A DNA stretch of 64,000 bases, from the NCBI RefSeq assembly GCF_021026375.1, contig NZ_JAJNDB010000002.1:62001-126000 (forward strand), in the 5' to 3' direction. The notes below the pieces were generated by a model. The model worked only from the letters and a program-made list of their open reading frames with translations, was not told where the DNA came from and did not search any database. Source of the DNA: Actinomycetospora endophytica (GTDB lineage Bacteria; Actinomycetota; Actinomycetes; Mycobacteriales; Pseudonocardiaceae). Of the stretch, positions 162 through 46,400 are shown in pieces. The stretch's first letter is position 1, and each line of letters begins with the position of its first letter. A program made the position numbers and the translations under genes.

Positions 162-739
162 CCGCCGCAGTGGAGTCGGTCCGCACGCTCGCGCTGCGCG
201 AGATCGGGCCCGCCGAGCGCGGGACCCGGCCCGAGGAGGTCGTCATCGCGCTCTCCCCGGCGTTCGGGGACCCGTTCACGAAGACGATCGTCGACGTGCC
301 GCACGCCGAGGTCGTCCGCCAACTGCTGGCGGGCATCGAGGAGCGCGGCGGCTCGGCGCGGGTGATCAAGGTCTACCGGACCACCGACCTCGCGGCGATC
401 GCCCACTTCGGGGCCAAGCTCTCCGGCTCCGGCATCGCGGTCGGCGTCCTCTCGCGGGGCACCACGGTGCTGCACCAGCGCGACCTGGCGCGGCTCTCGA
501 ACCTCGAGCTGTTCCCGCAGGCCCCGCTGCTCGACGCCGAGGTCTTCCGGGCGATCGGGGCGAACGCGGCGCAGTACGCGCAGGGGCAGTCGCCTCGCCC
601 GGTGCCGACGCGCAACGACCAGATGGCCCGCCCGCGCTGGCAGGCCAAGGCGGCGCTGCTGCACCTCAAGGAGTTCGAGTGCATCGACCACGCCCGCGCG
701 GCGGTCGAGGTCGAGCCGGTCATCACCCGCGTCGACTAG
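158..739 (+). CDS. pduD: diol/glycerol dehydratase medium subunit
   Basis: The product is 193 aa from the ATG at 158, which overlaps the large-subunit stop. The core matches the medium (beta) subunit family: EEVVIALSPAF, PHAEVVRQLLAGIEERG, the LSGSGIAVGVLSRGTTVLHQ segment, then DLARLSNLELFPQAPLL and VPTRNDQMARPRWQAKAALL. This subunit forms part of the adenosylcobalamin cleft of the dehydratase. No N-terminal extension of the kind used for microcompartment targeting is obvious, and no shell-protein genes are in view, so a soluble enzyme is likely (inference). The TAG stop (737-739) is the first triplet of a palindromic family A repeat. The next gene in the operon is the reactivase. Confidence 0.9.
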   Translation: MTAAVESVRTLALREIGPAERGTRPEEVVIALSPAFGDPFTKTIVDVPHAEVVRQLLAGIEERGGSARVIKVYRTTDLAAIAHFGAKLSGSGIAVGVLSRGTTVLHQRDLARLSNLELFPQAPLLDAEVFRAIGANAAQYAQGQSPRPVPTRNDQMARPRWQAKAALLHLKEFECIDHARAAVEVEPVITRVD

Positions 740-830
740 GTGCGCTGCCGCGCTCGTGAGCCCTATCGGCGTGCTCCCCTTATTCCGTGCTCTGGCACGG
801 ATTAGTGCTCACCGGGCCGGAGGCCACCTA
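737..830. repeat. family A palindromic repeat, copy 1 (variant with internal 20-mer)
   Basis: A 94-bp imperfect palindrome running from TAGGTGC (737) to GCCACCTA (830). The outer arms are GCTCGTGAGC on the left and GTGCTCACCGGGCC on the right, and an inner stem TTATTCCGTGC/GCACGGATTA lies around 780-802. Unlike the other four copies it carries an extra CCCTATCGGCGTGCTCCCCT (761-780), the same 20-mer found at 51770-51789. The left edge supplies the TAG stop of pduD. It lies between two co-directional operon genes (pduD and ddrA), whereas three of the other copies lie between convergent genes and the fourth between a convergent pair containing a small ORF. Confidence 0.85.
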
Positions 831-858
831 CCACCGTCACGACTCAGGAAGGCCGGGA

Positions 859-2712
859 GTGTCCCTCGTCATCGGCGTCGACATCGGCAACTCCACGACC
901 GAGGCGTGCATCGCGGAGGTCGTCCCCGGCGAGGTGGCGCGCCTGGCCTCCTCACTCACCCGGACGACGGGTGTGAAAGGCACCCCGGCGAACACCGCCG
1001 GGGCCGTCACGGCCGTCCGGCGTGCCCTCGAGGCCGCCGGGCGGCCCTCTGACGCCCTCGCGACGGTGCTCCTCAACGAGGCCACGCCGGTCATCAGCGG
1101 GCTCGCGATGGAGACCATCACCGAGACGATCATCACCGAGTCGACGATGATCGGCCACAACCCCGACACCCCCGGCGGCGAGGGCCTCGGCGTCGGGATG
1201 ACGGTGGCGCTGGACGAGCTGACGACCGTCGAGGCCGACGTCCCGGTCGTCGTCGTGATCGAAGCCGGCGCGGACTTCGACGACGTCGCGCACCTGCTGA
1301 ACGGGGCGTCCGAGCGCGGCGTCGACGTGGTCGCGGCCGTCATGCACGGCGACGACGCGGTCCTCGTCGTGAACCGCTTGCCGCACCGCATCCCGGTGGT
1401 CGACGAGGTGTCGGCCGTGGAGAAGGTGCCGCTGGGGATGCTCGCGGCGGTCGAGGTCGCGCCGCCCGGGCGGACCATCCGCACGTTGTCGGACTCGTAC
1501 GGGCTGGCCTCCACGTTCGACCTCGACGCCGAGCAGACCCGCCAGGTCTCGCCGGTCGCCCGGGCGCTCTCGGGCAACCGGTCCGCCGTCGTCGTGCGGA
1601 CCCCCGCCGGCGACGTGACCGACCGGCGCATCCCCGTCGGGACGCTGACCCTGTCCGGTTCCGGGCGATCCCTCGACGTCGGGGTCGACGGCGGCGCCGA
1701 CGCGATCATGGAGGCGATCGGGCGGGTCGCCCCGCTGACCGACGTACATGGTGAGCCGGGCACCCACGTCGGCGGGATGCTCGCGAACGTCCGGGACACG
1801 ATGACCGACGTGACCGGGCAGCCCGCGTCGGACATCCGGATCCGTGACGTCCTCGCCGTCGACACCGTCGTGCCGGCCGTGGTGCGCGGCGGGCTGGCCG
1901 GGGAGGTCTCGCGGGAGAACGCCGTCGCGCTCGCGGCGATGGTGCGCACCAGCCGCAGCCGCATGCAGGCGGTGGTGGACGCGATCTCCGTCGAGCTCGG
2001 CTGCGAGACGGTCATCGGCGGGGTCGAGGGCGAGGTCGCGGTGCGCGGCGCGCTCACCACCCCGGGCGCCTCGGTGCCGATCGCGATCATCGACATGGGC
2101 GGCGGCTCGACCGACGCGGCGCTGCTCGACCGGGACGGCGCGGTCTCGGCCGTGCACGTCGCCGGCGCGGGCGAGCTGGTCACCAAGCTCATCGACTCCG
2201 AGCTCGGCCTCGAGGACCGGGACGCCGCGGAGTCGGTGAAGCGCCACCCGCTGGCCAAGGTGGAGAGCTTCTTCCACGTGCGCCACGAGGACGGCACGGT
2301 CCAGTTCTACACCGACGCGCTGCCGCCCGCGGTCTTCGCGAAGGTCGTGACCGTCACGCCCGAGGGGCTCGCGCCGGTGCCGGTGCGCGGGTCGCTGGAG
2401 GAGGTCCGGCGGGTGCGCCGCGAGGCCAAGCGCCGGGTGTTCGTGGTGAACGCGCTGCGGGCGCTCGTCCAGGTCGCGCCGCAGGGCTCGCTGCGGCTGC
2501 TCGGCTCGGTGGTGCTGCTCGGCGGGTCCGCGCTGGACTTCGAGATCCCCGGGATGGTGGCCGACGCGCTGGCGCCCTACGGCGTGGTGTGCGGCATCGG
2601 CAACGTCCACGGCACCGAGGGTCCGCGCAACGCCGTGGCCGCCGGGCTGGTGGACACCCACGCCGGGACCGCGGCCGGGCCGACGGCGGCGTCGCGCGAG
2701 GCGGTGTCGTGA
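859..2712 (+). CDS. ddrA: diol dehydratase reactivase, large (ATPase) subunit
   Basis: The product is 617 aa. It belongs to the actin/Hsp70-like ATPase family that exchanges damaged cobalamin out of inactivated diol/glycerol dehydratase. The N-terminus VIGVDIGNSTTEACIAEV is the phosphate-1 loop and the second phosphate motif is IAIIDMGGGSTDAAL (about residues 410-424). GTG 859 is chosen because AGGAAGG (846-852) lies 6 nt upstream; an in-frame ATG at 787 would add 24 unrelated residues read from the family A repeat. Its stop overlaps the start of the small reactivase subunit (GTGA). With DdrB it would form a heterotetramer acting on the upstream dehydratase. Confidence 0.93.
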   Translation: MSLVIGVDIGNSTTEACIAEVVPGEVARLASSLTRTTGVKGTPANTAGAVTAVRRALEAAGRPSDALATVLLNEATPVISGLAMETITETIITESTMIGHNPDTPGGEGLGVGMTVALDELTTVEADVPVVVVIEAGADFDDVAHLLNGASERGVDVVAAVMHGDDAVLVVNRLPHRIPVVDEVSAVEKVPLGMLAAVEVAPPGRTIRTLSDSYGLASTFDLDAEQTRQVSPVARALSGNRSAVVVRTPAGDVTDRRIPVGTLTLSGSGRSLDVGVDGGADAIMEAIGRVAPLTDVHGEPGTHVGGMLANVRDTMTDVTGQPASDIRIRDVLAVDTVVPAVVRGGLAGEVSRENAVALAAMVRTSRSRMQAVVDAISVELGCETVIGGVEGEVAVRGALTTPGASVPIAIIDMGGGSTDAALLDRDGAVSAVHVAGAGELVTKLIDSELGLEDRDAAESVKRHPLAKVESFFHVRHEDGTVQFYTDALPPAVFAKVVTVTPEGLAPVPVRGSLEEVRRVRREAKRRVFVVNALRALVQVAPQGSLRLLGSVVLLGGSALDFEIPGMVADALAPYGVVCGIGNVHGTEGPRNAVAAGLVDTHAGTAAGPTAASREAVS

Positions 2713-3119
2713 GCAGCCCGCTCTCCGGGGTGATGGTTTCCGGCGGACCCGGGTGCCATGGCCGCATCGACCGCGCCGACGACCCCGCCCTGCCACCCGC
2801 GGTCCTGATCACCGTCCACGACGACGCCCCGCCGGGCGTGCTGCGGGAGGTCTGCGCGGGCGCGGAGGAACAGGGCATCCCGACGGCGATCCTGTCCGGC
2901 CCGCCGTCGGACGCCGATGACGCCGGACGGCACGCGGCGGGGGAGTCCCGGCTCGAGGTCGGCGTCGGGATCGGGCCCGACGGTGCCGTCGTCGTCCGGC
3001 ACGCCCTGGTGCCGGCGGCCGTGCTGGTGCTCGACGGCGGGTCCCCTCCGTCGCGGGTCCGCGCAGCGGGGGCGGACGCCGCGCGGATCGTGGCGGGGCT
3101 GGCGCTGCGCGCCATGTGA
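2709..3119 (+). CDS. ddrB: diol dehydratase reactivase, small subunit
   Basis: The product is 136 aa from a GTG that overlaps the ddrA stop. The family pattern is visible: PAVLITVHDDAPPGVLREV, then AGAEEQGIPTAI, an ESRLEVGVGIGPDGAVV block and HALVPAAVLV. DdrB-type subunits resemble the dehydratase medium subunit and swap with it during reactivation (established for the family). Overlapping start and stop codons indicate that the whole pdu/ddr set is one transcript. The stop codon lies in a 46-bp palindrome shared with the convergent patatin gene. Confidence 0.87.
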   Translation: MSSPLSGVMVSGGPGCHGRIDRADDPALPPAVLITVHDDAPPGVLREVCAGAEEQGIPTAILSGPPSDADDAGRHAAGESRLEVGVGIGPDGAVVVRHALVPAAVLVLDGGSPPSRVRAAGADAARIVAGLALRAM

Positions 3120-3158
3120 ATGAATTCGGTCGCCCGGACGACCACATTCGTTCACATG
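3113..3158. terminator. convergent palindrome carrying both stop codons (ddrB / patatin)
   Basis: The arms CATGTGAATGAATTCGGTCG (3113-3132) and CGACCACATTCGTTCACATG (3139-3158) pair at 17 of 20 positions around a 6-nt loop. The left arm carries the ddrB stop (TGA 3117-3119) and the right arm the patatin stop (3152-3154). Both proteins therefore end in Met encoded by the arm. A bidirectional terminator is the simplest reading. There is no T-run, which is usual in high-GC actinomycetes. Confidence 0.65.
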
Positions 3159-4111
3159 CCGAAGGCTTCCTTCAGCGCCTCGCATCCGGTCTCGACGCCC
3201 TGGCGAAGCCGGTCCGGGTCGGTCTCCAGCGGGTTGATCGTGTTCGATCCCTCCGGCGGCCGGACCTCGAACAGGTGCGGGGGCTCGTCGACGCCCTCGT
3301 CCCCGGCGATCGCGCTCGCCTTCGCGAGCCACTCGTCGTCGGCCCGACGGTTCTCCAGGCGCCGCCCCAGCACGTGCACCAGGCCGGGGACCCGGGCCTC
3401 GCCGAGCCGGGCCACGAGCGCCTTCTCCAGCCGGGTGGCGTCGATCGCCTCCTGGTCGGCGCGGCGGGTGCGCAGCATCAGCACGTGGGTCGCGCCCTGG
3501 TCGAGCGCGGTGTGGAAGGGCAGCGGCTCGGCCACCGCGGCGTCGACCAGCCGACGGCCGTGGATCTCGATCGGCATCCCCGCGAGCACCGGCACGTTCG
3601 CCGAGGCCTGCAGCGCCCGCTTGAGCGACTCGGGGTCGGAGATCGTGCCCTCCAGGTCGAGCGCCTGGCCGGTGTCGACGTCGGTCGCGACCGGGTGCAG
3701 CGGCAGGTCGGAGTCGACGACGTCCTGCCAGCGCACCGGGATGACCTTCTCGCCGACGGTGTGGATGAGGTACTCGACGTCCACGACCGGTCGCCCCCGC
3801 AACCCCCGGGCCGGCTTCGTCACCCGCTCCATCAGCCCGGGGCGCCACCAGCCCGCGCAGCACTCCTCGACCTGGCGCGCGGCGAGCCAGCTCCCGGCGA
3901 GCGCGCCCGCCGAGGCGCCGTAGACGGCGTCGAAGGAGTCGGTGAAACCCAGCCGCTCGAGCCCGAGCACCATGCCCGACGAGTACGTCGCCCGGCTCCC
4001 GCCGCCCTCGATCGCGACGACCACGCGGTGGCCGTCGTCGTGCGCGCCCGGACGTGTGCCCGCCGCCCGGCGGGCGGTGAGCACCTCGATGACGCGATGG
4101 GGCCGTGGCAC
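3152..4111 (-). CDS. patatin-like phospholipase family protein
   Basis: A serine lipid acyl hydrolase of about 319 aa. The oxyanion-hole motif EGGGSRATYSSGM is followed by the nucleophile elbow GASAG (Ser in G-A-S-A-G) and the Asp of the catalytic dyad in VDAAV. The family hydrolyses acyl esters of phospholipids or neutral lipids; no signal peptide or membrane helix is visible, so it is probably cytoplasmic. The start is uncertain. GTG at 4111 has a GAGG 8 nt upstream, whereas the frame stays open to 4270 through repeat-derived, low-complexity sequence. It is convergent with the pdu/ddr operon and shows no functional link to it. Confidence 0.85.
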   Translation of the reverse strand: MPRPHRVIEVLTARRAAGTRPGAHDDGHRVVVAIEGGGSRATYSSGMVLGLERLGFTDSFDAVYGASAGALAGSWLAARQVEECCAGWWRPGLMERVTKPARGLRGRPVVDVEYLIHTVGEKVIPVRWQDVVDSDLPLHPVATDVDTGQALDLEGTISDPESLKRALQASANVPVLAGMPIEIHGRRLVDAAVAEPLPFHTALDQGATHVLMLRTRRADQEAIDATRLEKALVARLGEARVPGLVHVLGRRLENRRADDEWLAKASAIAGDEGVDEPPHLFEVRPPEGSNTINPLETDPDRLRQGVETGCEALKEAFGM

Positions 4112-4195
4112 CCGGGCATCCTCGCGGGCGCCCGGGGCTCCGGCGACACGGAGGTGGCCCGTCACACGGCCCGCCGCGCCGGGGCAGCCCCGCGC

Positions 4196-4240
4196 GAGGA
4201 TGTGGAGTTGCTGACGTCCGGTGTCAGCGGTGCCGCATCG
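4196..4240. repeat. family B palindromic repeat, copy 1
   Basis: The 45-bp sequence GAGGATGTGGAGTTGCTGAC...CGCATCG differs from the copy at 13333-13377 at only 3 positions. It is an imperfect palindrome with GATG...CATC outer arms and an inner GCTGAC/GTCAGC stem. It opens a 340-bp stretch upstream of the patatin gene made up almost entirely of repeats. Confidence 0.85.
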
Positions 4241-4315
4241 CCCGCCACGCCCGACCGCCTCGCCCGCCACGCCCGACCGCCTCGCCCGCCACGCCCGACC
4301 GCCTCGCCTGCCACG
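4239..4315. repeat. 22-bp tandem repeat, three perfect units plus a partial
   Basis: The unit CGCCCGCCACGCCCGACCGC+CT is repeated exactly at 4239-4260, 4261-4282 and 4283-4304, followed by a diverged partial unit. It abuts family B copy 1 on the left and the first family C copy on the right. Together with the G-rich run at 4457-4490, these repeats fill most of the 424 bp between the patatin start and the phosphatase stop. I see no gene in this interval. Confidence 0.9.
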
Positions 4316-4374
4316 AAGGGCACATCACGCAGGTCGATGCGCCCGCCGGCCTGCGCCACGTGCCCCTGATCACC
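4311..4374. repeat. family C imperfect palindrome, copy 1
   Basis: The element runs from AGGGCACATCACGCAGG to CCTGCGCCACGTGCCC and ends CTGATCACC. The two halves are imperfect reverse complements. A second direct copy lies at 4394-4457, a third at 26511-26570, and a reversed partial copy at 12241-12282. Confidence 0.7.
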
Positions 4375-4393
4375 TGCGCCGGAGCCTGGCCCG

Positions 4394-4457
4394 CCACGAG
4401 GGGCACATCACGCATGCCCCACGGCCTTGCGGGATGCCTCCAGTGCTCTTGATCACC
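4394..4457. repeat. family C imperfect palindrome, copy 2
   Basis: Sequence CCACGAGGGGCACATCACGC through GTGCTCTTGATCACC, a direct repeat of copy 1 about 83 bp downstream with several substitutions. It is followed by a run of five GGGGGC units (4457-4490), a simple repeat able to form G-rich structures. Confidence 0.7.
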
Positions 4458-4535
4458 TGGCGGGGGCGGGGGCGGGGGCGGGGGCGGGTGCGGCAGGGCT
4501 GACCAATCCCGAGCCACACAGCACCGGCACCGCCC

Positions 4536-6245
4536 TCAGTGCGCGCGCCGCTCCAACGTGACGCGGTCGATCTCCTGACCGGTGTCGGTGATCGCCCGCA
4601 GCGTCATCGTCGTCGTCTGCCCCGGTCCCGGCGGCGGCACGACGTCCACCGTCACGTAGGCGTAGTCGAGGTAGCGGGCCTGCGACCAGTCGACGACGTC
4701 CGGGAGCTTCGCCGATTCCCCGACCGCCTGGTAGCTCACCACGTTCACCCCGCTGTCCGGGGTGGTGTCGCCGCGGTAGCGGTCGGTCTCGCCCGCCTGC
4801 CACGAGTACCGGGGCCGCCCGCCCGACCCCACGCAGACGTACGTGGTGCCGTCGGTCTCCGGCCGGACCGTCGCACCGTCGGGAGCCTGCGCGGCCGAGC
4901 GCCCGCGGCGGATCGGGTTCGTGCGTTCGTACTGGTGGTTGTGACCCTGCAGCGCCAGATCCACCGAGAACTCGTCGAACAACGGCGCGACCGCGGCCCG
5001 GACCCCGGCGTCGGAGGCGTGCGAGGCCGACGTCGCGAACGCGCAGTGGTGGAAGAACGCGACCACGAAGTCGATCGCGGGGTCGCCGCGCATCCCGGTC
5101 AGTGTCTGCCGGAGCCAGGTGACCTGGGCGCCGCCCGAGTAGCCCGCGTTCGTCGGGATCTCCATCGACAGGTCGTTCGCGTCGACGCTGACGACCCCGA
5201 CGTTGCCGTAGCGCATCGAGTACACGCTCGGGCAGGCGCTCGGCCCGGTGCGCGGGAGGTCGAGCCGCGCCGCGTGCCCGCCGTAGCCGTGGCGGGCGCC
5301 GTGCGCGGTGTTGTCGTCGTAGAGCGCCTCCATGTCGTGGTTGCCGGTCGCGAACATCCACGGCGTGGTTGCGGCGCTGCGCTCGATCAGCCCGAAGTAC
5401 GTCGTCCACACCGTGGGGTCGAAGCTGTCGAACCCGGAGGGCGACTTCGACGAGCCCGTCGACTTCACCGGCTTGCCCTCACCGGAGGGGTCGGCGTAGC
5501 AGATGTCCCCCGCGAGCAGGTGGAACGCGGGGCGGGTCGCGGCGACGCGGTCGACCATGGACGTCGACGGCGTCATCGAGCGACGGGTGTCGTCGGGCTT
5601 GTAGGGCTCGTTGGTGAACCCGGACAGCCCGCTCGGGGGGACCATGTCGACGCCCTGGTCGGCGAACGCGGTGAAGCTCCACGGGCCGGTCGCGGTCCGC
5701 GGCGCGGTGGTGAACGTGGCCGTCTCGGTCGTCGTGCCGTCGGGCATCCGGAACCGGTACTGGTAGCTCGCTCCGGGCTGGAGCCCGTTGGCGAGCGCGT
5801 GGACGAAGTACTGGTCGCTGGCGCGGATCGAGCCGTCGGCCTGCGGGACCTGGGAGACGAGGCGCCGCACCTCCACCGGGATCTGCGCGCCGAACGTCCC
5901 GCCCTGCCCGAGGTCGACGACCATCGCTCCCGCCGGCGGAGGTGCGGTCAGTTCGCCGGCCATCGCCATCGAGCGGGTCGGGTCGTCGCCGAACGCCAGG
6001 TGCCGCCCGACCACCGCGACCGGCGCCCCCGCGGCCGAGGCGCACGCGGCCAGCGTCCAGGGCGCGGACGCGAGCCCGAGGGCGGCGACGACACCGGAGC
6101 CCTGCTTCAGCGCGGTGCGCCGGCTCACCGGGTGGCGGTGCAGGAAGCTGCGCACCCAGTCGTGCTGCTCGGCGACGGTCATGTGCTCGGCGAGGTCCGC
6201 CGGCACGCCGACGTCGGGAGCCTGGCCACGGGGAGTGCGCGTCAC
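4536..6245 (-). CDS. TAT-exported purple acid phosphatase-like metallophosphoesterase
   Basis: About 569 aa from GTG 6245 (the frame is open to 6341). The twin-arginine signal is SRRTALKQGSG followed by the hydrophobic VVAALGLASAPWTLAACA. A fibronectin-like N-terminal domain ends near the FTTAP motif, and then the metal-site motifs appear in order: FADQG, GDICYAD, GNHDME, AFFHH and GHNHQYER. These correspond to the five metal-ligand blocks of purple acid phosphatases, except that the first block has DQG. It probably hydrolyses phosphomonoesters outside the membrane. No clear Shine-Dalgarno sequence is visible, so the start is uncertain. The gene is divergent from the CocE hydrolase. Confidence 0.87.
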   Translation of the reverse strand: MTRTPRGQAPDVGVPADLAEHMTVAEQHDWVRSFLHRHPVSRRTALKQGSGVVAALGLASAPWTLAACASAAGAPVAVVGRHLAFGDDPTRSMAMAGELTAPPPAGAMVVDLGQGGTFGAQIPVEVRRLVSQVPQADGSIRASDQYFVHALANGLQPGASYQYRFRMPDGTTTETATFTTAPRTATGPWSFTAFADQGVDMVPPSGLSGFTNEPYKPDDTRRSMTPSTSMVDRVAATRPAFHLLAGDICYADPSGEGKPVKSTGSSKSPSGFDSFDPTVWTTYFGLIERSAATTPWMFATGNHDMEALYDDNTAHGARHGYGGHAARLDLPRTGPSACPSVYSMRYGNVGVVSVDANDLSMEIPTNAGYSGGAQVTWLRQTLTGMRGDPAIDFVVAFFHHCAFATSASHASDAGVRAAVAPLFDEFSVDLALQGHNHQYERTNPIRRGRSAAQAPDGATVRPETDGTTYVCVGSGGRPRYSWQAGETDRYRGDTTPDSGVNVVSYQAVGESAKLPDVVDWSQARYLDYAYVTVDVVPPPGPGQTTTMTLRAITDTGQEIDRVTLERRAH

Positions 6246-6355
6246 GGACCGCAGCGTCACCCGGCCGGGAATCGTGTGCGACCGGACCCCGGCGAACACA
6301 CGGTGAACAGCGGCCGTGCTCCGTGCAGCGGCGAGGGCCACGTCATCATGGACCG

Positions 6356-8029: not shown

Positions 8030-8360
8030 CCGCCGGTCCGAGCAGCGGTCCGCGGCGGACGGAGACGCAGGTCGCAGGCGTCGGCGGGGCGCCCGTCACA
8101 AGTTCCCCGTGAGTAGCATCGATGGTGCCGCCGGCTCGTCCGGCGGGACGCTCCCGGGCCCCTCCCCCCGGGCGCCCGGAGCGTCGAGCGGACCGGTCGT
8201 CCCCCCGGCCGGTCCGCTCTCCCCGATCACGCGAACCCGCGTGCGGCTCTCCGCCCCGCTCCCCGACGTGGGGGAGCGGCCGGGCCCGAGTGGCCCGACC
8301 GGATGCCCGTCCCGGTGGTGAGTCGGTCAGCTCCCCCCTGACGGGCTCCGGAGGTCTGTG
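8030..8360. other. 331-bp intergenic region with a strong hairpin
   Basis: No gene is supported here. The frames are short and proline/arginine-rich. GAGCGGACCGG (8186-8196) and CCGGTCCGCTC (8209-8219) form an 11-bp perfect stem that could terminate the CocE transcript. The Shine-Dalgarno GGAGG (8350-8354) for the next gene lies at the right end. Confidence 0.6.
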
Positions 8361-16872: not shown

Positions 16873-18092
16873 CCGTCCCCGACCGCACCGCCGTCGCGAT
16901 CGTCGGCGGCGGCCCCGCGGGCCTGCTGCTGTCGCACCTGCTCGTGCGCCAGGGAATCGACTCCGTCGTGCTCGAGTCCCGCTCCCGGGAGCGGGTCGAG
17001 TCGCGCCAGCGGGCCGGGATCCTCGAGCACGGCACGGTCGACGTGCTGCACGAGATCGGCGCCGACGCCCGGATGAACGCGCAGGGGATGCCCCACGACG
17101 GGTTCGCGTTCCACGCGCACGGCGAGGAGATCCGCGTCGACATGGCCGCCCTGACCGGCCGCGGCGTGATGATCTGGGCGCAGACCGAGGTCGTCCGCGA
17201 CCTGATCGCGCTCCGGCTGGAGCAGGGCGACCCGTTGCTGTTCGACGCCGAGGTGCTGGCGGTGGAGAAGGTCGACGGGCCGCTGGGGCACGACGGCGAG
17301 GCCGTGGTCCGGTACGCGTACGAGGGCGTCGAGCACGAGCTGCGCGCCGACGTCGTCGTCGGGTGCGACGGCTTCCACGGCGTCGCCCGCAGGGCCATCC
17401 CCGCCGAGGCGGTGCGGACCTTCGAGCGCGTCTACCCCTTCTCCTGGCTCGGGATCCTCGCCGACGCCCCGCCGTCGTCGGAGGAGCTCGTCTACGCCCG
17501 CCACGACCGCGGGTTCGCGCTGCTCTCGATGCGCTCGCCGTCGATCACCCGCGCCTACCTGCAGGTGCCGAACGACACCGACCCGTCGTCGTGGTCGCAC
17601 GAGGCGATCTGGGACGAGCTGACGGCCCGGACCGGGTTGGCGGACGGGTCGTTCACGCTGGGGCGCGGGCCGATCACCGACGTCTCGGTGACCCCGATGC
17701 GGTCGTTCGTCGCGGAGCCGATGCGCTCCGGTCGGCTCTTCCTCGCCGGCGACGCCGCCCACATCGTCCCGCCGACCGGCGCGAAGGGCCTCAACCTCGC
17801 CGTCGCCGACGTCCGGGTGCTGGCCGGGGCGCTCGCGTCGTGGCGCTCGACCGGCTCGCAGGAGCTGCTCGACGCCTACTCGGACACCGCGCTGCGGCGG
17901 GTGTGGCGGGCCGAGCACTTCAGCTGGACCATGACGACGATGCTGCACCGGCCCCCCGACGCCGACCCGTTCGACGACCGGCTCGCCCGCTCCCACCTGC
18001 AGCTCGTCGCGTCGTCGGAGGCCTACCGGACCGCGATCGCGGAGAACTACCGGGGCCTTGACCTAGATGGCCTACGGCCTCGTGAGCACTAA
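16869..18092 (+). CDS. pobA: 4-hydroxybenzoate 3-monooxygenase
   Basis: The product is 407 aa. It is the flavoprotein that hydroxylates 4-hydroxybenzoate to protocatechuate, the substrate of the two preceding gene products. Motifs are the FAD Rossmann loop AIVGGGPAGLLL, RQRAGILEHGTVDVL, QTEVVRDLI, the DGFHGVARRAIPAE segment and GDAAHIVPPTGAKGLNLA. The natural C-terminus is expected near AENYRGL. The last residues (LRPREH) are read from a family A repeat, which also supplies the TAA stop (18090-18092). The loop SRSRERVES differs from the Pseudomonas sequence in the cofactor-specificity region, so NADH use is possible (inference). Confidence 0.96.
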   Translation: MTVPDRTAVAIVGGGPAGLLLSHLLVRQGIDSVVLESRSRERVESRQRAGILEHGTVDVLHEIGADARMNAQGMPHDGFAFHAHGEEIRVDMAALTGRGVMIWAQTEVVRDLIALRLEQGDPLLFDAEVLAVEKVDGPLGHDGEAVVRYAYEGVEHELRADVVVGCDGFHGVARRAIPAEAVRTFERVYPFSWLGILADAPPSSEELVYARHDRGFALLSMRSPSITRAYLQVPNDTDPSSWSHEAIWDELTARTGLADGSFTLGRGPITDVSVTPMRSFVAEPMRSGRLFLAGDAAHIVPPTGAKGLNLAVADVRVLAGALASWRSTGSQELLDAYSDTALRRVWRAEHFSWTMTTMLHRPPDADPFDDRLARSHLQLVASSEAYRTAIAENYRGLDLDGLRPREH

Positions 18093-18137
18093 TTGATGCC
18101 CTGGCATCACTTACTGCTCACGGGCCGGAGGCACCTC
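18064..18137. repeat. family A palindromic repeat, copy 2
   Basis: A 74-bp imperfect palindrome between convergent pobA and the Lrp gene. The core is CTCGTGAGCACTAATTGATG ... CATCACTTACTGCTCACGGG, with the right edge GGCACCTC. The left core carries the TAA stop of pobA and the right core the TAA stop of the Lrp gene (18111-18113). The usual TAG at each edge is lost here, so both proteins read further into the repeat. Confidence 0.9.
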
Positions 18138-20496: not shown

Positions 20497-22002
20497 ATGA
20501 GCCCGCCCCCCGGACTGGGCAGCTGGACGGTCCGCCGCGCCCGGACCACCCCGGAGCGGACGGCGCTGGCGCACGGGGGTCGGCGGCTGACGTACGCGGC
20601 GCTCGACGACCGGGTGCGGGCGCTGGCCGCCGGGCTGGCGGGGCTCGGCGTCGCGCGCGGCGACCGTGTCGCCTACCTCGGGCCGAACCACCCGGCCTTC
20701 GTCGAGACCCTGTTCGCGACGACGGCGCTGGGTGCGGTCTTCGTGCCGCTCAACGCCCGGCTCGCTCCGGAGGAGCACGCGTTCGCGCTGGCGGACACCG
20801 GGGCGCGGGTGCTCGTCCACGCCCCCGGTGCCGATGTCAGCGATGCGGCGTTGCAGACACTCGACGTCTTGGCGGTGCGCAGTGAGCACGCCGATAGGGC
20901 ATCGCTGACGACGCTCGAGGTCGGCGCCGGCTACGACGAGCTGATCACCACCGCCGCGACCCGCTCGGACCCCGTCCACGTCGACCCCGACGACACCGCC
21001 GTCCTGCTCTACACCTCCGGCACCACCGGCCGACCCAAGGCGGCCCGGCTGTCCCATGCCAACCTCACCTGGAACGCGCTCAACGTCCTCGTCGACGTCG
21101 ACCTCGCGCGCGACGAGGTCTGCCTGCTCTCGGCCCCGCTCTTCCACGCCGCGGCGCTCGGCATGACCTGCCTGCCCGTGCTGCTCAAGGGCGGCACCCT
21201 GGTGCTGGAGGAGGCGTTCGACGTCGACCGGACGCTCGACCTGGTCCCCGCCCAGGGCGTGACGATCATGTTCGGGGTCCCGACGATGTTCGCCGCGCTC
21301 GCGCGGTCGCCGCGCTTCGCCGACACCGACCTGTCGGGCGTGCGGTACCTGCTCTGCGGCGGCGCGCCGGTCCCGCCCTCGCTGCTCGAGGTCTACGCCG
21401 CGCGCGGCCTCACCTTCCTGCAGGGCTACGGGATGACCGAGGCCGCGCCCGGCGTGCTGCTGCTCGACCGCGAGCACGCCCGCGAGAAGACCGGAACCGC
21501 GGGGCGTCCGCACTTCTTCTCCGACGTCCGGCTCGGTGACTCCGGCGAGATCCTGGTCCGCGGCCCGAACGTCGTCGACGGGTACTGGCGCCGACCCGAC
21601 GAGAGCGCGGAGGCGTTCGACGACGAGGGCTGGTTCCGCTCGGGCGACGTCGCGACCGTCGACGACGACGGGTTCCACCGCATCGTCGACCGGGTGAAGG
21701 ACCTCTACATCTCCGGCGGGGAGAACGTCTCGCCGGCCGAGGTCGAGGGAGTGCTGGTCGGGCACCCGGACGTCGTCGACGCCGCTGTCATCGGCGTGCC
21801 CGACGAGCGCTGGGGCGAGATCGGGCGCGCCTGGGTCGTGCTTGCGCCCGGTGCGACGTCCACCCCGTCGGACGTGCTCACCTTCCTGGAGGGCCGGCTC
21901 GCGCGGTTCAAGCACCCGCGCGCCGTCGAGGTCGTCGACGCACTGCCGCGCAATCCGACGGGGAAGCTCGACAAGGGTGCCCTCCGGGCCCGTGAGCACT
22001 GA
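20497..22002 (+). CDS. fcs: hydroxycinnamate (feruloyl/p-coumaroyl)-CoA ligase
   Basis: The product is 501 aa of the ANL superfamily. Core motifs are LLYTSGTTGRPKAARLSH (A3), QGYGMTEAAPG (A5), WFRSGDVATVDDDGFHRIVD (A7), RVKDLYISGGENVSPAEVE (A8) and the catalytic-Lys PTGKLDKGAL (A10). Substrate identity is inferred from coupling to ech. Residues about 113-138 are encoded by a 74-bp family B repeat with 11-bp perfect inverted ends, inserted before LEVGAGYDELI. The C-terminal AREH and the TGA stop come from family A copy 3. Both repeats appear tolerated in frame. Confidence 0.88.
   Translation: MSPPPGLGSWTVRRARTTPERTALAHGGRRLTYAALDDRVRALAAGLAGLGVARGDRVAYLGPNHPAFVETLFATTALGAVFVPLNARLAPEEHAFALADTGARVLVHAPGADVSDAALQTLDVLAVRSEHADRASLTTLEVGAGYDELITTAATRSDPVHVDPDDTAVLLYTSGTTGRPKAARLSHANLTWNALNVLVDVDLARDEVCLLSAPLFHAAALGMTCLPVLLKGGTLVLEEAFDVDRTLDLVPAQGVTIMFGVPTMFAALARSPRFADTDLSGVRYLLCGGAPVPPSLLEVYAARGLTFLQGYGMTEAAPGVLLLDREHAREKTGTAGRPHFFSDVRLGDSGEILVRGPNVVDGYWRRPDESAEAFDDEGWFRSGDVATVDDDGFHRIVDRVKDLYISGGENVSPAEVEGVLVGHPDVVDAAVIGVPDERWGEIGRAWVVLAPGATSTPSDVLTFLEGRLARFKHPRAVEVVDALPRNPTGKLDKGALRAREH
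20836..20909 (+). repeat. family B repeat inside fcs with 11-bp inverted ends
   Basis: GTCAGCGATGC (20836-20846) and GCATCGCTGAC (20899-20909) are perfect inverted repeats bounding 74 bp. The element includes the 16-bp core GAGCACGCCGATAGGG (20884-20899). It is read through in frame as part of the ligase, in a surface-type loop ahead of the A3 motif. Confidence 0.85.
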
Positions 22003-22049
22003 GTGATGTCAAAGCATCAATTACTGCTCTCGAGCGCGCAGCGCACCTA
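21975..22049. repeat. family A palindromic repeat, copy 3
   Basis: A 75-bp palindrome between convergent fcs and the MarR gene, with left edge GGTGCC, core CCCGTGAGCACTGAGTGATG...GCATCAATTACTGCTCTCGA and right edge GCACCTA. It supplies the fcs TGA (22000-22002) and, on the other strand, the MarR TAG (22047-22049). Confidence 0.9.
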
Positions 22050-37390: not shown

Positions 37391-37636
37391 ATGGACACCG
37401 TGAAGACGGCATGGAGCGCTCTGGCCCGGGTGTGGGCGGAGCAGAAGGAGATCTCGGAACGGCTGAGCCTCGTCGACCGCCCGTGGGAGGAGCGCTACCT
37501 CCACTGGGCGTTCGAGGGCGGCGAGTACGTCCTGCACGGCGACCTGATGCCCTCGACGCGGCGTCGGATGTCGACCACGCGCGGCGGCTGGTGCCGGCGC
37601 GCGGCCGGTCGTCCGCTGCCGCGTCCGCGCCGGTAG
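37391..37636 (+). CDS. small conserved-type hypothetical protein (81 aa)
   Basis: It begins MDTVKTAWSALARVWAEQKE and has a tryptophan-rich core (DRPWEERYLHWAFEGGEYVL). The C-terminal third is very Arg-rich. The composition of the first 55 residues looks protein-like, and the divergent placement beside a LysR gene supports a real gene; I do not recognise a family with a known function. The TAG stop is the first triplet of family A copy 4. Confidence 0.55.
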   Translation: MDTVKTAWSALARVWAEQKEISERLSLVDRPWEERYLHWAFEGGEYVLHGDLMPSTRRRMSTTRGGWCRRAAGRPLPRPRR

Positions 37637-37709
37637 GTGCGCTCCGCGCTCGTGAGCAGTAAGTGACGCCAGAGCCTCACTTACTGCTCACGAGCCCGCA
37701 GGGCACCTA
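37634..37709. repeat. family A palindromic repeat, copy 4 (most symmetric)
   Basis: A 76-bp palindrome from TAGGTGC to GCACCTA. The inner stem GCTCGTGAGCAGTAAGTGA (37648-37666) pairs perfectly with 37677-37695 (19 bp, 10-nt loop). Both edges donate a TAG stop, to the 81-aa ORF on the left and to the TetR gene on the right (37707-37709). Confidence 0.95.
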
Positions 37710-38342: not shown

Positions 38343-38359
38343 ACATACTCCGAGTATGT
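38343..38359. promoter_or_regulatory. TetR operator between the TetR gene and the P450
   Basis: ACATACTC-C-GAGTATGT is a perfect 8-bp inverted repeat with a 1-bp centre. It is AT-rich for this genome and sits 28 bp upstream of the TetR start and 33 bp upstream of the P450 start. Confidence 0.75.
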
Positions 38360-38391
38360 CTCTGACGGATGGTTCGTGAGAGGTGGTCCCC

Positions 38392-39768: not shown

Positions 39769-39833
39769 CCCGCACAGGGCACACACAGCGACTGCCCAGC
39801 ACGGGCGAACCGGGCAGTGCCAGGCTGGTGCCC

Positions 39834-40562
39834 ATGAACGCGACCCGTGCCGAGCTGCGGCGGCCCGACGGCAGTCCGGTCCGCGCCCTCGTCGTCGACG
39901 ACGAGCCGACGCTGGCCGACCTCCTCTCCATGGCCCTGCGCTACGAGGGCTGGGACGTGCGCAGCGCGGGCGACGGCCTCGGCGCCGTGACGCAGGGCCG
40001 GGAGTTCCGCCCGGACGTCGTCGTGCTCGACGTGATGCTCCCCGACATCGACGGCTTCGAGGTCCTGCGCCGGCTGCGGGCCGACATCCCCGAGGTCCCG
40101 GTGCTGTTCCTGACCGCGCGGGACGCCGTGGAGGACCGGGTCGCGGGCATCACCGCGGGCGGCGACGACTACGTCACCAAGCCGTTCAGCCTCGAGGAGG
40201 TCGTCGCGCGCCTGCGGGGCCTGCTGCGCCGCGCCGCCGTCGCGACCGCCGTCCGCGGCGACGCGGGCCTCGTCGTCGGGGACCTGACCCTCGACGAGGA
40301 CTCGCACGAGGTCTTCCGCGGCGGCGCGCAGGTCGACCTCACCGCCACCGAGTTCGAGCTGCTGCGCTTCCTCATGCGCAACCCCCGCCGCGTGCTCTCC
40401 AAGGCCCAGATCCTCGACCGGGTGTGGAACTACGATTTCGGCGGCCAGTCGAACATCGTCGAGCTCTACATCTCCTACCTGCGCAAGAAGATCGACGCCG
40501 GCCGCGCCCCGATGATCCACACCGTGCGCGGCGCCGGGTACGTCCTCAAGCCCGCAGGCTGA
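39834..40562 (+). CDS. OmpR-family response regulator
   Basis: The product is 242 aa. The receiver domain shows RALVVDDEPTLADLL, the phospho-acceptor Asp in VVVLDVMLPDIDG (about residue 66), LFLTARD and the Lys of YVTKPFSLEEV. The C-terminal winged helix includes LTATEFELLRFLMRNPRRVL, then SKAQILDRVWNYDFGG and YISYLRKKID...HTVRGAGYVLKP. It resembles mycobacterial TrcR/TcrA-type regulators. It is followed by its sensor kinase 15 bp downstream. ACTGCCC-N14-GGGCAGT (39791-39818) just upstream could be an autoregulatory site. Confidence 0.95.
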   Translation: MNATRAELRRPDGSPVRALVVDDEPTLADLLSMALRYEGWDVRSAGDGLGAVTQGREFRPDVVVLDVMLPDIDGFEVLRRLRADIPEVPVLFLTARDAVEDRVAGITAGGDDYVTKPFSLEEVVARLRGLLRRAAVATAVRGDAGLVVGDLTLDEDSHEVFRGGAQVDLTATEFELLRFLMRNPRRVLSKAQILDRVWNYDFGGQSNIVELYISYLRKKIDAGRAPMIHTVRGAGYVLKPAG

Positions 40563-40577
40563 CCGGGAGGACATCGC

Positions 40578-42104
40578 ATGACGTGGATGCGCTCGCTCCA
40601 GGCCCGCATCGTCCTCACGACGGTGGTCCTGATGGCCGTGGTGTGCGCGGTCGTCGGGATCGGTGCCGCCCTCTCGCTGCGCCACTACCTGGGTGAGCAG
40701 CTCGCCCAGGAGGTCTCGCGCACCGTCGGGTTCACGGCGAACCCGCCGAACGACGACTCCGACCACCGCCCGCCGCCCCCCGACGCGGGCAGCGGCATCG
40801 GCGGCGGCGACGGCACCAGCCGCATCGAGGTGCGCAGCATCGACGGCCAGGTCGTCTCGGCCGCGGCGCTCGGGAACTTCCGCTCCGCCGACCAGCCGCT
40901 CTCCGCCGTCCAGGTGGCGCCGGTCCTGGCGGTCACCCCGGACCAGGGCAGTCCCGGCGACCCCGGCGCGGAGGCGGTCACGCTGCCCGGGCTCGGCACC
41001 TACTTCATGGAGGCCCGGACCGTGTCCGACGGTTCGGTGGTCGCCGTCGGCATCTCGACGGCGCGCATGGACGCGACCGTCGGCCGGCTCGCGGTCATCG
41101 AGATCGTCATCTTCGCGATCGGGGTGGCGGTCGCCGGGGTGATCGCGGCGTTCGCGACCGGGGCCACGCTGCGCCCGCTGCACCGCGTCTCGGCCACCGC
41201 CCGCCGCGTGTCCGAACTGCCGCTCGAGCGCGGCGAGGTGGAGCTCGACGACCGCGTGCCCGAGGCCGACGCCGATCCCCGCACCGAGGTCGGGCAGGTG
41301 GGCGTCGCCCTCAACCGCATGCTCGGTCACGTCGCGGGTGCCCTCGAGGTCCGTCAGGAGAGCGAGACCCGGGTGCGCCGGTTCGTCGCGGACGCCTCGC
41401 ACGAGCTGCGCACCCCGCTCGCCGCCATCCGCGGGTACTCCGAGCTGGCCCGGCGCCGCTCCGACGAGCTGCCGCCCGAGGTCGCCGCGATGCTCGAGCG
41501 CGTCGGCTCGCAGACCGAGCGCATGACGCTGCTCGTCGAGGACCTGCTGCTCCTGGCCCGTCTCGACGCCGGCCGCCCGCTGGCCCGCGAGCGGGTCGAC
41601 CTCGCGCGGATCGTCGCCGACGTGGTCGCCGACGCGCACGCCGTGGCCTCCGACCACCACTGGTCGCTGCAGCTGCCCGAGGACCCGGAGGCGATCGGGT
41701 TCGACGTCGTCGGGGACCCGGAGCGCCTGCACCAGGTCGTGGCGAACCTGCTGGCCAACGCCCGCACCCACACCCCGTCGGGCACCCACGTCGTCGCCGG
41801 CCTGAGTCGCCGCGGTGACACGGTGCGTCTCGAGGTGTCCGACGACGGCCCCGGTATCGCCCCGGACCTGCTCGGCCATGTCTTCGAGCGGTTCGCCCGC
41901 GGCGACACCGGGCGCGCCCGGACCACCGGCAGCACCGGGCTCGGGCTGTCGATCGTGTCGGCCGTCGTCACCGAGCACGGCGGGACGCTCGGCGTCACCA
42001 GCGTGCCCGGGGACACCCGCTTCGCCGTCGCGCTGCCGGCCGCGGACCGGGGCGGTCCCTCGCTGCCCCCGGTCACCGCCCCGGTGTCGGTGCGACGGGG
42101 CTGA
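40578..42104 (+). CDS. membrane sensor histidine kinase
   Basis: The product is 508 aa. TM1 (VLTTVVLMAVVCAVVGIGAA) is followed by an extracytoplasmic sensor of about 130 residues with a Pro/Asp/Gly-rich stretch, then TM2 (VIEIVIFAIGVAVAGVIAAF), HAMP, the HisKA box ADASHELRTPLAAIRGYSEL (His about 275), N box NLLANARTHTP, G1 DDGPGIAPD, F box FERFARGD and G2 GSTGLGLSIV. It is the partner of the response regulator. The signal cannot be predicted. The stop sits in GCTGA-TCC-TCAGC, which also holds the convergent DUF1918 stop. Confidence 0.95.
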   Translation: MTWMRSLQARIVLTTVVLMAVVCAVVGIGAALSLRHYLGEQLAQEVSRTVGFTANPPNDDSDHRPPPPDAGSGIGGGDGTSRIEVRSIDGQVVSAAALGNFRSADQPLSAVQVAPVLAVTPDQGSPGDPGAEAVTLPGLGTYFMEARTVSDGSVVAVGISTARMDATVGRLAVIEIVIFAIGVAVAGVIAAFATGATLRPLHRVSATARRVSELPLERGEVELDDRVPEADADPRTEVGQVGVALNRMLGHVAGALEVRQESETRVRRFVADASHELRTPLAAIRGYSELARRRSDELPPEVAAMLERVGSQTERMTLLVEDLLLLARLDAGRPLARERVDLARIVADVVADAHAVASDHHWSLQLPEDPEAIGFDVVGDPERLHQVVANLLANARTHTPSGTHVVAGLSRRGDTVRLEVSDDGPGIAPDLLGHVFERFARGDTGRARTTGSTGLGLSIVSAVVTEHGGTLGVTSVPGDTRFAVALPAADRGGPSLPPVTAPVSVRRG

Positions 42105-42107
42105 TCC

Positions 42108-42431
42108 TCAGCGCTGGAGGCGATCCGCGACGGTGGCCGCGGCGTCGGCCACCGCGCGGGCGGCGCGGCCCGTCGCGTCCTGGGCGGCGTCCCGGGCCCG
42201 CTCGGCGGACTCGCTCGCGCGGTCGGCCACCTGGCCGAGACGTTCCCCCACGGTCGGCGCCTCGATGGTCGCGTCCGGGCCCGGTGTCAGGATCGACTCG
42301 TCGCCGGAGTCGAAGCGCACCCGGTAGGGCGGCCCGTCCGTCCCGAGGACGGCGACGATGGTGCCCGTCCGGTCCGGGGCGTCGACGGTGTTGGCGTGCA
42401 GGGTGATGCGGTCACCGACGTCAGCACTCAC
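42108..42431 (-). CDS. DUF1918 domain protein with helical tail
   Basis: The product is 107 aa from GTG 42431, with GGAGGAG 7 nt upstream. The N-terminal SH3-like DUF1918 domain reads VGDRITLHANTVDAPDRTG, then TIVAVLGTDGPPYRVRFDSGDESILTPG. An Ala/Arg-rich amphipathic helix of about 45 residues follows (ERLGQVADRASESAERARDA). DUF1918 proteins are widespread in actinobacteria and their function is not established. Three codons separate its stop from the histidine kinase stop. Confidence 0.82.
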   Translation of the reverse strand: MSADVGDRITLHANTVDAPDRTGTIVAVLGTDGPPYRVRFDSGDESILTPGPDATIEAPTVGERLGQVADRASESAERARDAAQDATGRAARAVADAAATVADRLQR

Positions 42432-42515
42432 GATGGCTCTCCTCCCGGCGGGTGTCGCGCGGACGGATACCCACGCGATGATCACCCCAGACAGGTCCGT
42501 CCCACCCCGGAACGA

Positions 42516-42562
42516 GCGAAGGGCCCCTCCGGTCGAGTGGATCGACCGGAGGGGCCCTTCGC
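42516..42562. terminator. 21-bp perfect hairpin terminator of the Clp ATPase gene
   Basis: The stem 42516-42536 pairs exactly with 42542-42562 around the 5-nt loop GTGGA. It begins GCGAAGGGCCCCTCCGG. It lies 12 bp after the Clp stop on the minus strand. A related hairpin with the same GCGAAGGGCCCC start follows the MaoC gene (50833-50884). Confidence 0.85.
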
Positions 42563-42573
42563 CGGAGTGCGGG

Positions 42574-45114
<2,541 letters not shown>

Positions 45115-45203
45115 GCGTACCTCTCTGTGGGGGTCCTACCGCCTGCGGCCTGGTGCCTGCGGCGGCTGTCAGGAGGATCAGCAATCGGTGATCCCGATTC
45201 ATT

Positions 45204-45224
45204 CCTGAGTCGGTGTGACTCATG
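45204..45224 (-). promoter_or_regulatory. HAIR box (HspR operator) upstream of the Clp ATPase
   Basis: CCTGAGT-CGGTGTG-ACTCATG matches the HAIR consensus CTTGAGT-N7-ACTCAAG at 12 of 14 arm positions, with the mismatches symmetric. It lies 90 bp upstream of the Clp start, in the gap shared with the divergent oxidoreductase. HspR repression of clpB/dnaK through HAIR is established in actinomycetes. Confidence 0.75.
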
Positions 45225-45314
45225 TCTGGTCCGAGCAGGGTGCGCCGACCCGGCTCACGTGTTCCCCGTCGCCGTCGCGGGACACACCCCCGGCGTCGTG
45301 GGTAACCGGGGGCC

Positions 45315-46331
45315 ATGAGCACTGCCCACGAGGTCCACCTGGTCCGCCGCCCCCACGGCTTCCCCGACGCCGACGACTTCCGCCTCGTCGAACGCGAGCT
45401 CGGAGAGCCCGGGCCGGGCGAGGCCGCCGTCGTCAACCGCGCGTTCTCCGTCGACCCGTACATGCGTGGCCGGATGAACGACGTGCCGTCCTACGTCGCG
45501 CCGTTCGGGCTGGACGAGGCGATGGACGGCCGCTCGGTCGGCGAGGTCTCGGCCGTCGGCGACGGGGTCACCGACCTCGCCGCCGGGGACCTGGTGCTGG
45601 GCAACCTCGCGTGGCGCGACCGCGGGATCGCGAAGGCCAAGCACCTGCAGAAGGTCCCGGACGTCGAGGGTGTCGACCCGAAGGCCTACCTCGGCGTGCT
45701 CGGCGCGCCGGGGCTCACCGCCTGGGTCGGGCTGCTGGACAAGGCGTCGTTCCAGCCCGGGGACGCGGTCTTCGTCTCCGGCGCGGCCGGGGCGGTGGGC
45801 AGCCTCGTCGGGCAGATCGCGAAGGCCAAGGGCGCGTCACGCGTGGTGGGCAGCGCGGGCAGCGCCGAGAAGGTCAGGTGGCTGACCGACGAGCTCGGCT
45901 TCGACGCCGCGTTCAACTATCGCGATGCCCCCGTGCTCGACCAGCTGGAGAAGGCGATGCCCTCCGGCCTGGACGTGTACTTCGACAACGTCGGCGCGGA
46001 CCACCTCGAGGCCGCGATCGACGTCGCGAACGATCACGCGCGGGTGGCCGCCTGCGGGGCGATCGCGCACTACAACGACACCGCGGAGGACCTCACGCCC
46101 GGCCCGCGGAACCTGTTCAAGATCGTCAAGAAGCGGCTGTCGATCCAGGGCTTCATCGTCACCGACTCGCTGGACCGGTTCCCGCCGTTCCTGGAGGAGG
46201 TCACGCCGTGGGTGGCCCAGGGTCGGGTGCGGTTCTCGGAGACGGTCGTGTCGGGCGTGGACCACGCGGTCGAGGCCTTCCAGGGGCTCCTGCGCGGGGA
46301 GAACACCGGGAAGATGCTGGTCACGCCCTAG
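45315..46331 (+). CDS. zinc-independent NADP-dependent oxidoreductase (alkenal/enone reductase-like MDR)
   Basis: The product is 338 aa. Motifs are VDPYMRGRMND, LGVLGAPGLTAWVGLLDKA, the nucleotide loop VFVSGAAGAVGSLVGQIAKAKG, and GLDVYFDNVGADHLEAAID followed by ACGAIAHYND. These define the leukotriene-B4 12-hydroxydehydrogenase/CurA branch of medium-chain reductases, which reduce alpha,beta-unsaturated carbonyls. There is no zinc-binding site. The TAG stop is the edge of family A copy 5. It is divergent from the HAIR-controlled Clp gene, so it could share stress-related expression (inference). Confidence 0.92.
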   Translation: MSTAHEVHLVRRPHGFPDADDFRLVERELGEPGPGEAAVVNRAFSVDPYMRGRMNDVPSYVAPFGLDEAMDGRSVGEVSAVGDGVTDLAAGDLVLGNLAWRDRGIAKAKHLQKVPDVEGVDPKAYLGVLGAPGLTAWVGLLDKASFQPGDAVFVSGAAGAVGSLVGQIAKAKGASRVVGSAGSAEKVRWLTDELGFDAAFNYRDAPVLDQLEKAMPSGLDVYFDNVGADHLEAAIDVANDHARVAACGAIAHYNDTAEDLTPGPRNLFKIVKKRLSIQGFIVTDSLDRFPPFLEEVTPWVAQGRVRFSETVVSGVDHAVEAFQGLLRGENTGKMLVTP

Positions 46332-46400
46332 GTGCCTGCGGCTCGTGAGCAGTAATTGCTGCTCTGGCGTCAATTACTGCTCACGAGCGCGGAGCGCACC
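46329..46400. repeat. family A palindromic repeat, copy 5
   Basis: A 72-bp palindrome. The inner stem GCTCGTGAGCAGTAATTG (46341-46358) pairs perfectly with 46371-46388 (18 bp, 12-nt loop). The left TAG ends the oxidoreductase. The right core TTA (46374-46376) is the TAA stop of the MFS gene, whose C-terminus ALRAREQ is read from the repeat. Confidence 0.95.

Follow-up and report, generated by a model that had tools for sequence, protein, structure and literature searches.

Why does one short palindrome recur at gene ends in Actinomycetospora endophytica, and why do the flanking genes stop inside it? We analysed a window of 64,000 nt of this genome (contig NZ_JAJNDB010000002.1, positions 62,001 to 126,000), in which a first-pass annotation had described five copies of a palindromic element that supplies a stop codon to every gene end abutting it. 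Further copies were collected from the whole 6.98-Mb genome (G000) and from the genomes of relatives (G001–G017 and others), with fetched loci numbered L. The element is probably a dispersed, REPIN-like DNA palindrome whose ends carry TA and which is retained at gene ends and later homogenised. We infer that the unit spreads or is copied as DNA, and its TA ends would join at a stop codon (TAG or TAA) or at the TA that two tail-to-tail stops have in common (YTAR). Because TA followed by G would remake TAG on both strands, one at each edge, both genes would stay intact and the copy would be kept there. Copies landing elsewhere would be purged, and those retained would be homogenised, either through gene conversion or through a succession of replacements at one address.

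Gene ends within the palindrome

The core 15-mer (up to 2 mismatches) occurs genome-wide 134 times forward and 123 times reverse, against 0 and 4 times for its reversed control, and a covariance model built from 18 rows (nine copies, each read on both strands) has at least 150 matches in G000; genome copy numbers, here and for the relative G010, are lower bounds. We analysed 133 copies, the canonical form being 76 nt long, in 73 stretches (1.44 Mb) around copy matches and in the window. The stretches were picked from 15-mer and model matches and are thus non-random, and decayed copies are under-counted. Gene ends rest on the output of a single gene caller, a codon-phase model trained on long, high-GC3 open reading frames (ORFs) of the G000 stretches, for which starts are approximate. 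All p-values assume independent copies although the copies are related.

Ninety-one of the 133 copies lie between convergent genes, 40 between tandem genes and two between divergent genes; none lies inside a called gene, and 131 face at least one gene 3' end. Measured against the non-coding DNA outside copies (140,619 nt: convergent 10,630, tandem 74,271, divergent 55,718), this is an excess in convergent gaps (p = 3e-69) and a deficit in divergent ones (p = 3e-26). Copies unrelated to gene ends, the outcome named beforehand as speaking against a gene-end element, were looked for across the genome sample and not found. A mobile palindrome that survives where reading frames can end, which the first-pass annotation had offered as an alternative, fits this context best. 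The relative G010 shows a similar picture, with 45 convergent and 23 tandem copies among 70, one divergent copy and one at a contig end. One of the two divergent exceptions of G000 is shared by both genomes (L038:17412 in G000 and L152:4846 in G010): it occupies an orthologous place between divergent genes, and is therefore old. Among copies of equal length, 172 pairs are more than 90% identical, two of them at 98.7%.

The position of the stop codons is equally constrained. For the 222 gene 3' ends that face a copy in G000, the stop is the edge TAG in 141 cases, lies deeper inside in 66, straddles the edge in two and precedes it in 13. A stop inside the copy is therefore found at 207 of 222 ends, which bears out the claim that the element provides stops on both strands. 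At 155 of these 207 ends the reading frame matches the edge (one third expected; p = 3e-34). In G010, where side counts exclude the copy at a contig end, 113 facing ends divide into 63 at the edge, 42 deeper, one straddling and seven before, and the frame matches at 69 of 105 inside ends. In 35 of the 91 convergent pairs each gene stops at an edge, and in another 35 one gene does so while its partner stops deeper; 10 pairs have both stops deeper and 11 have one outside. Inside copies, genes stop with TAG 147 times, TGA 51 times and TAA 11 times, against TGA 976, TAG 187 and TAA 24 outside.

The edges can be read both as stop codons and as part of the element. Sides of a copy that face a 3' end carry the edge TAG more often than those that face a gene start, both in G000 (160/222 versus 21/44, p = 0.002) and in G010 (68/113 versus 5/25, p = 0.0003), so its use as a stop also protects the TAG. 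TA is nevertheless present at 21 of 44 edges facing gene starts in G000 and at 5 of 25 in G010, against 0.9% TA in intergenic DNA, and it therefore belongs to the element or to its target.

Such a pattern could in principle be produced by chance or by gene calling, with stops accumulating wherever AT content rises locally within a 74% GC genome. Stop codons are AT-rich, and a canonical copy does hold stops in the two remaining frames (a TGA ending at position 22 and a TAA at 29). Against this explanation stand the frame agreement, which is the same in G010, and the behaviour of bare 40-nt hairpins lacking arms: these have a stop in their foot at only 3 of 15 facing ends in G000 (p = 1e-10 against full copies) and at 2 of 7 in G010. 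At the L058 junction, moreover, the left protein ends Gln-Ser-stop in all 10 relatives fetched (9 TGA, 1 TAG), as in G000, and the gene beyond differs in the readable relatives. We regard an artefact as very improbable.

The five window copies were all located where they had been described, and each folds better than its dinucleotide shuffles (z-scores of -2.8, -7.0, -4.7, -9.1 and -7.7 for copies 1 to 5):

737..830: copy 1, 94 nt with an enlarged asymmetric core, in tandem context (from sequence, fold and gene calls); its TAG at 737-739 ends the diol dehydratase medium-subunit gene (158-739, plus strand), and the next called gene runs from 859
18064..18137: copy 2, convergent; the FAD-binding oxygenase (pobA-like) gene stops at its TAA, 18090-18092, and on the minus strand 18111-18113 is the stop of the Lrp/AsnC gene
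21974..22049: copy 3, convergent; the AMP-ligase (fcs-like) gene stops at its TGA, 22000-22002, and on the minus strand the edge TAG at 22047-22049 ends the MarR gene
37634..37709: copy 4, canonical 76 nt, convergent; both edge TAGs are used as stops, 37634-37636 by an 81-aa ORF (plus strand) and 37707-37709 by the TetR gene (minus strand)
46329..46402: copy 5, convergent; the edge TAG at 46329-46331 ends the oxidoreductase gene, and on the minus strand TAA at 46374-46376 ends the MFS gene

In our gene calls each of the nine abutting 3' ends falls inside its copy (739, 18092, 18111, 22002, 22047, 37636, 37707, 46331 and 46374), five at an edge TAG and four in the core, as had been proposed. 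Pfam backs eight of the nine genes (diol dehydratase medium subunit, FAD-binding oxygenase, Lrp/AsnC, AMP-ligase, MarR, TetR, zinc-type oxidoreductase and MFS); the 81-aa ORF has no Pfam match. The earlier description of the edges and core needs correcting. Both edges read TAGGTGC/GCACCTA in copy 4 alone; the left edge is altered in the copies at 18064 (TAGATGG) and 21975 (GGGTGCC), and the right edge in those at 18064 (GCACCTC), 46329 (GCACCGG) and 737 (GCCACCTA). The full core GTGAGCAGTAA with TTACTGCTCAC is confined to the copies at 37634 and 46329.

Fold of the unit and the question of a terminator

The unit consists of two inverted small hairpins, each GGTG with a 4-bp arm hairpin, which flank a 40-nt hairpin and are closed by TAGGT pairing with ACCTA. 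In copy 4 these parts are arranged as follows:

37634..37638, plus strand: 5' side of the closing stem, TAGGT, pairing with 37705-37709
37639..37649: left arm hairpin, 4 bp with a 3-nt loop, from arm-pair covariation across copies
37652..37691: core hairpin of 40 nt, 18 bp with a 4-nt loop, GTGAGC...GCTCAC
37694..37704: right arm hairpin, from arm-pair covariation
37705..37709, plus strand: 3' side of the closing stem, ACCTA

Across 63 canonical G000 copies and 50 G010 copies, arm pairs 7-15 and 8-14 are paired within the arm in 95-99% of cases, with G-C/C-G swaps, against 51-72% in shuffles, and the same positions pair with the opposite arm no more often than chance (0.34-0.63). From this local pairing the fold is a cloverleaf. 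RNAalifold recovers the same arm hairpins; energy folding of single copies favours one long hairpin. When GTGA..TCAC hairpins of lengths 34-49 were tried, 195 of 195 were exactly 40 nt, a partly circular result since the stretches were chosen with a model of that length. Seven GTG..CAC hairpins in 400 kb of G011, which were not selected by the model, have the same 40-nt core as read from their sequences. Rfam gave no match within the window at gathering score. A second dialect of 40-nt hairpin, GTGCGT..ACGCAC, exists in G000 in eight copies (L035:769, L036:16754, L040:11893, L059:11918, L065:17452, L079:7202, L095:11284 and L095:11370), none with a gene stop in its foot.

The other alternative of the first-pass annotation was a dedicated bidirectional gene-end module of stop plus terminator. 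In the form considered here, selected stops on both strands would be combined with a U-less (I-shaped) bidirectional terminator separating convergent transcription. The stops on both strands stand. The near-exclusive 3'-end location, the better retention of the edge TAG where a gene ends and the very stable folds all suit such a module, as do structured 3' ends lacking a U-tract in Streptomyces clavuligerus, described as possible I-shaped terminators or Rho-dependent ends in the part of that study cited here (PMC8269248). The terminator half has found no support to date. Within 12 nt after the core, T-runs reach at most 2 nt among 266 strands of G000 and at most 1 nt among 138 strands of G010, which rules out a canonical intrinsic (Rho-independent) terminator, and no terminator-like site was found at window copies 2-5. 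Selection at the RNA level through wobble asymmetry gave no signal, since GU does not exceed AC on the transcribed strand of 61 tandem copies (31 versus 26). Downstream genes start within 30 nt of the copy in 22 of 44 cases, window copy 1 among them, similar to tandem-pair gaps generally (361/844). Of the 269 convergent pairs in the G000 stretches, 144 lack both a copy and a strong inverted repeat. The bare hairpins described above, which seldom hold a stop in their foot, also argue against the module. A dedicated module is therefore unlikely. It is plausible that slowing or ending transcription, or shielding mRNA ends, is a by-product of the element; at convergent pairs, blocking the collision of transcription would be useful.

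Empty sites, mobility and turnover among relatives

We compared junctions that are occupied in one genome and empty in another. At seven colinear sites one of the two genomes, G000 or G010, has no copy. Three of these sites, each in tandem context, retain a TAG at the same codon, and the sequence after it resembles the far flank (L136:4380, L100:14312 and L036:15858). At the L053 junction, G006 has CTAA, in which both stops share TA, and its protein ends are like those of the occupied junction in G000; the left gene ends at the same codon in G013, G017 and G012 (TGA) and in G005 (TAG). At the L042 junction a broken half copy is found in G010 and an eroded copy in G015. Among 178 convergent pairs without a copy, the commonest gap is a 4-nt overlap, which is necessarily YTAR (10 pairs). 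As evidence for duplication of a TA target, TA at 21 of 44 non-stop edges, three of the seven empty sites and the CTAA of G006 fit; at the remaining four sites and in several relatives there is no clean empty site. TA insertion at stops is thus supported at some sites, and remodelling of gene ends at others. A 14-mer, CGGAGCTGAGCCGG, stands at two unrelated gene ends without a copy, at junctions orthologous to L042 and L053 (L169, L296 and L297); its inner 11-mer does not occur in the 2.3 Mb of G000 and G010, against 3 occurrences in 400 kb of G011.

The same TA ends could mark a miniature inverted-repeat transposable element (MITE) of Tc1/mariner-like (IS630-type) kind, duplicating a TA target and moved by an unseen transposase. 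RUP offers a precedent, with an IS630-Spn1 transposase and TA targets in the portion of its description cited here (PMC2229807). The TA at both ends, kept even at non-stop edges, the TAG at the same codon in the three empty tandem sites and the CTAA junction of G006 all agree with a MITE. Arm motifs number 396 in 2.3 Mb, 20 of them outside copies and mostly unrelated-looking; these include a half copy (L066:5364), a broken copy (L089:12312) and two full variant elements in L102. A transposon bearing such ends was not found among them, although IS630 families were not searched. Homogenisation in place, set out below, is not expected from simple insertion either. The ends of Tc1/mariner-type MITEs need neither conserved arm hairpins nor a fixed core length, which also counts against this explanation, and we consider it less likely still than the gene-end module. 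The two variant elements of L102 (12535-13640) flank a quinone-reductase-like gene, and three genes there end Met-stop because the hairpin foot CATGTGA supplies ATG TGA. One plasmid query and one exact pattern in viral contigs gave no match.

The genus, Actinomycetospora, is also indicated by the pobA neighbours. Model matches (E <= 1e-6) are present in 16 of 17 same-genus relatives, the exception being G012, and under stricter filters in 24 of 231 genomes and 4 of 46 genera of the family. The core sequence is peculiar to each of the 16 relatives, as read at one or two loci each, and its pairing is mostly kept. Armless 40-nt hairpins stand at some junctions of relatives; in 400 contiguous kb of G011 there are seven, six convergent and one tandem, with a stop within the inverted repeat at 6 of 13 facing ends. 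GTGAGC..GCTCAC pairs are in excess in four genomes from other genera of the family (G030, G196, G208 and G219; 52-99 against 2-11 in the control), none of which is among the 24 with full-model matches. The armless hairpins may thus be more widely spread than the cloverleaf.

Where flanks are colinear, 15 of 19 G000 copies have a copy at the same junction in the G010 stretches, and 16 of 19 G010 copies have one in G000, counts that are biased upward as stretches in both genomes were chosen for holding copies. In the window, the G010 junctions orthologous to copy 1, which sits between two same-strand diol-dehydratase genes, and to copy 4, where 37 nt of the left flank do not align, both hold a copy; the copy 5 site in G010 does not, and its left gene ends in TGA. 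At the copy 2 junction, four of 11 other Actinomycetospora loci have a hairpin (L184, L185, L186 and L196), L187 (G010) has none, and six have a differing downstream sequence. Identity over the 28-nt core is 0.750 within G000, 0.789 within G010 and 0.616 between them. The orthologous set of 17 pairs becomes 16 once window copy 1, with its broken core, is dropped, and 14 unambiguous pairs when a G010 copy matched to two G000 copies is omitted. Over all 16 pairs the core is 0.616 identical, against 0.600 for the same copies compared with other G010 copies (p = 0.23). Over the 14 it is 0.635 against 0.603 (p = 0.02), and the same copies are 0.731 identical to copies of their own genome. Flanks at orthologous junctions are about 72-93% identical. 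Addresses thus appear to persist while core sequences homogenise within each genome, and gene conversion, replacement or independent insertion at one address would each yield such likeness to the own genome.

Several observations weigh against a dispersed palindrome that inserts at stops, is kept there and is homogenised. The Y1 transposase family PF01797 was found in 0 of 18 genus genomes, most of them drafts, and in 5 of 14 control genomes. This rules out membership in the REPINs driven by a REP-associated tyrosine transposase (RAYT), and RAYT may have been lost after the element spread. There was no full-length relative or composite transposon with the same ends among the 20 outside arm motifs in the 2.3 Mb, where IS630 families were not searched. 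Outside copies, divergent intergenic TAs outnumber stop-codon TAs (583 versus 199), so TA insertion alone is rejected as a full explanation. Four of the seven empty sites lack the expected TA site: window 46329 (TGA), L095:16501, L144:8561 (a half copy) and L153:9068 (another hairpin). At L053 the left gene is two codons longer and ends in TGA in G016, G007, G001, G003 and G015, so that the junction in these five is not a clean empty site, and the longer left-gene form recurs at L042 in G001, G003, G016 and G007. Only 33 of 178 background convergent pairs overlap, against both stops inside in 80 of 91 occupied pairs; the gene ends have therefore been either selected or remodelled. The small excess in orthologous core identity (0.635 versus 0.603) indicates that turnover is incomplete, and one relative has a copy within a called gene near a contig end (L113).

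A bolder form of our reading, which we put forward only tentatively, is self-homogenising punctuation: a cloverleaf palindrome copied by a non-RAYT mechanism, with long-fixed addresses and two-strand stops, whose core is rewritten genome-wide as species diverge. If so, gene ends would be set by mobile DNA whose sequence dialect marks the species. If our main reading is right, a mobile palindrome supplies 147 of the 334 TAG stops counted in the sampled stretches, which are enriched for copies, and gene ends are a low-cost niche for the repeat, since the stop is remade on both strands. The 16 relatives with model matches would then carry dialects of one element, and in the one pair compared the addresses are often shared. 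It would become testable whether dispersed palindromes keep their species-specific sequences by gene conversion, by replacement or by co-evolution with a binding protein. Gilson and colleagues reportedly worked on the species specificity of palindromic units.

Two other repeats lie in the window. A different palindrome family, of GAAGGGGCCCTTCG type, is found at 42514-42562 and 50836-50884, with arms 88% complementary between both places, and similar sequence stands near gene ends in L066, L088 and L284. A 22-nt direct repeat occupies 4233-4315 in about three successive copies.

Comparison with known systems

The first-pass annotation knew of no named element with this property. That claim fails: the GTAG class of repetitive extragenic palindromes (REPs) 'often provide' a TAG stop codon to flanking ORFs, and lie mostly between convergent and co-directional ORFs, according to the part of the description cited here (PMC3733652). 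TAG-ended repeats that give stop codons are thus already known, and the present element shares their TAG termini and their use as stops for flanking ORFs; it departs from REPs in two defining respects, the GTAG tag and the RAYT. In place of the 5' GTAG/GTGG tag of REPs, the base before the edge TAG is G in 75 of 141 cases in G000 and 18 of 63 in G010. In the open PubMed Central literature we found no paper on this element in Actinomycetospora or Pseudonocardiaceae.

RUP, ERIC/IRU and Correia/NEMIS are likewise short elements with terminal inverted repeats, and they have terminal TA and target-site duplication; RUP and one Correia form measure 107 bp and ERIC 127 bp. The part of their description cited here gives RUP stops in all six frames and does not describe use at gene ends, nor does it mention a cloverleaf with covarying arms (PMC2229807). 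I-shaped terminators resemble the element in their strong GC stem at gene ends without a U-tract, in the portion of the source cited (PMC8269248); the element differs in recurring as a family whose edges, arms and core length are conserved. In E. coli, REPs within 15 nt of a stop stall ribosomes and amount to about 11% by RepRanger count, as far as the cited part of that work goes (PMC12306157), unlike the present element, inside which nearly all facing genes stop.

The closest likeness is to REPINs, whose architecture, clover fold and compensatory spacer changes have been described (PMC3116915, in the part cited). Like a REPIN, the element is an inverted pair of small tagged hairpins around a hairpin spacer, capable of a clover fold, and like REPINs and REPs it has many extragenic copies, mainly between convergent or co-directional genes. 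Unlike REPINs, it has no PF01797 protein in any of the 18 genus genomes, and it presents a REPIN-like architecture in a genus in which no RAYT was found.

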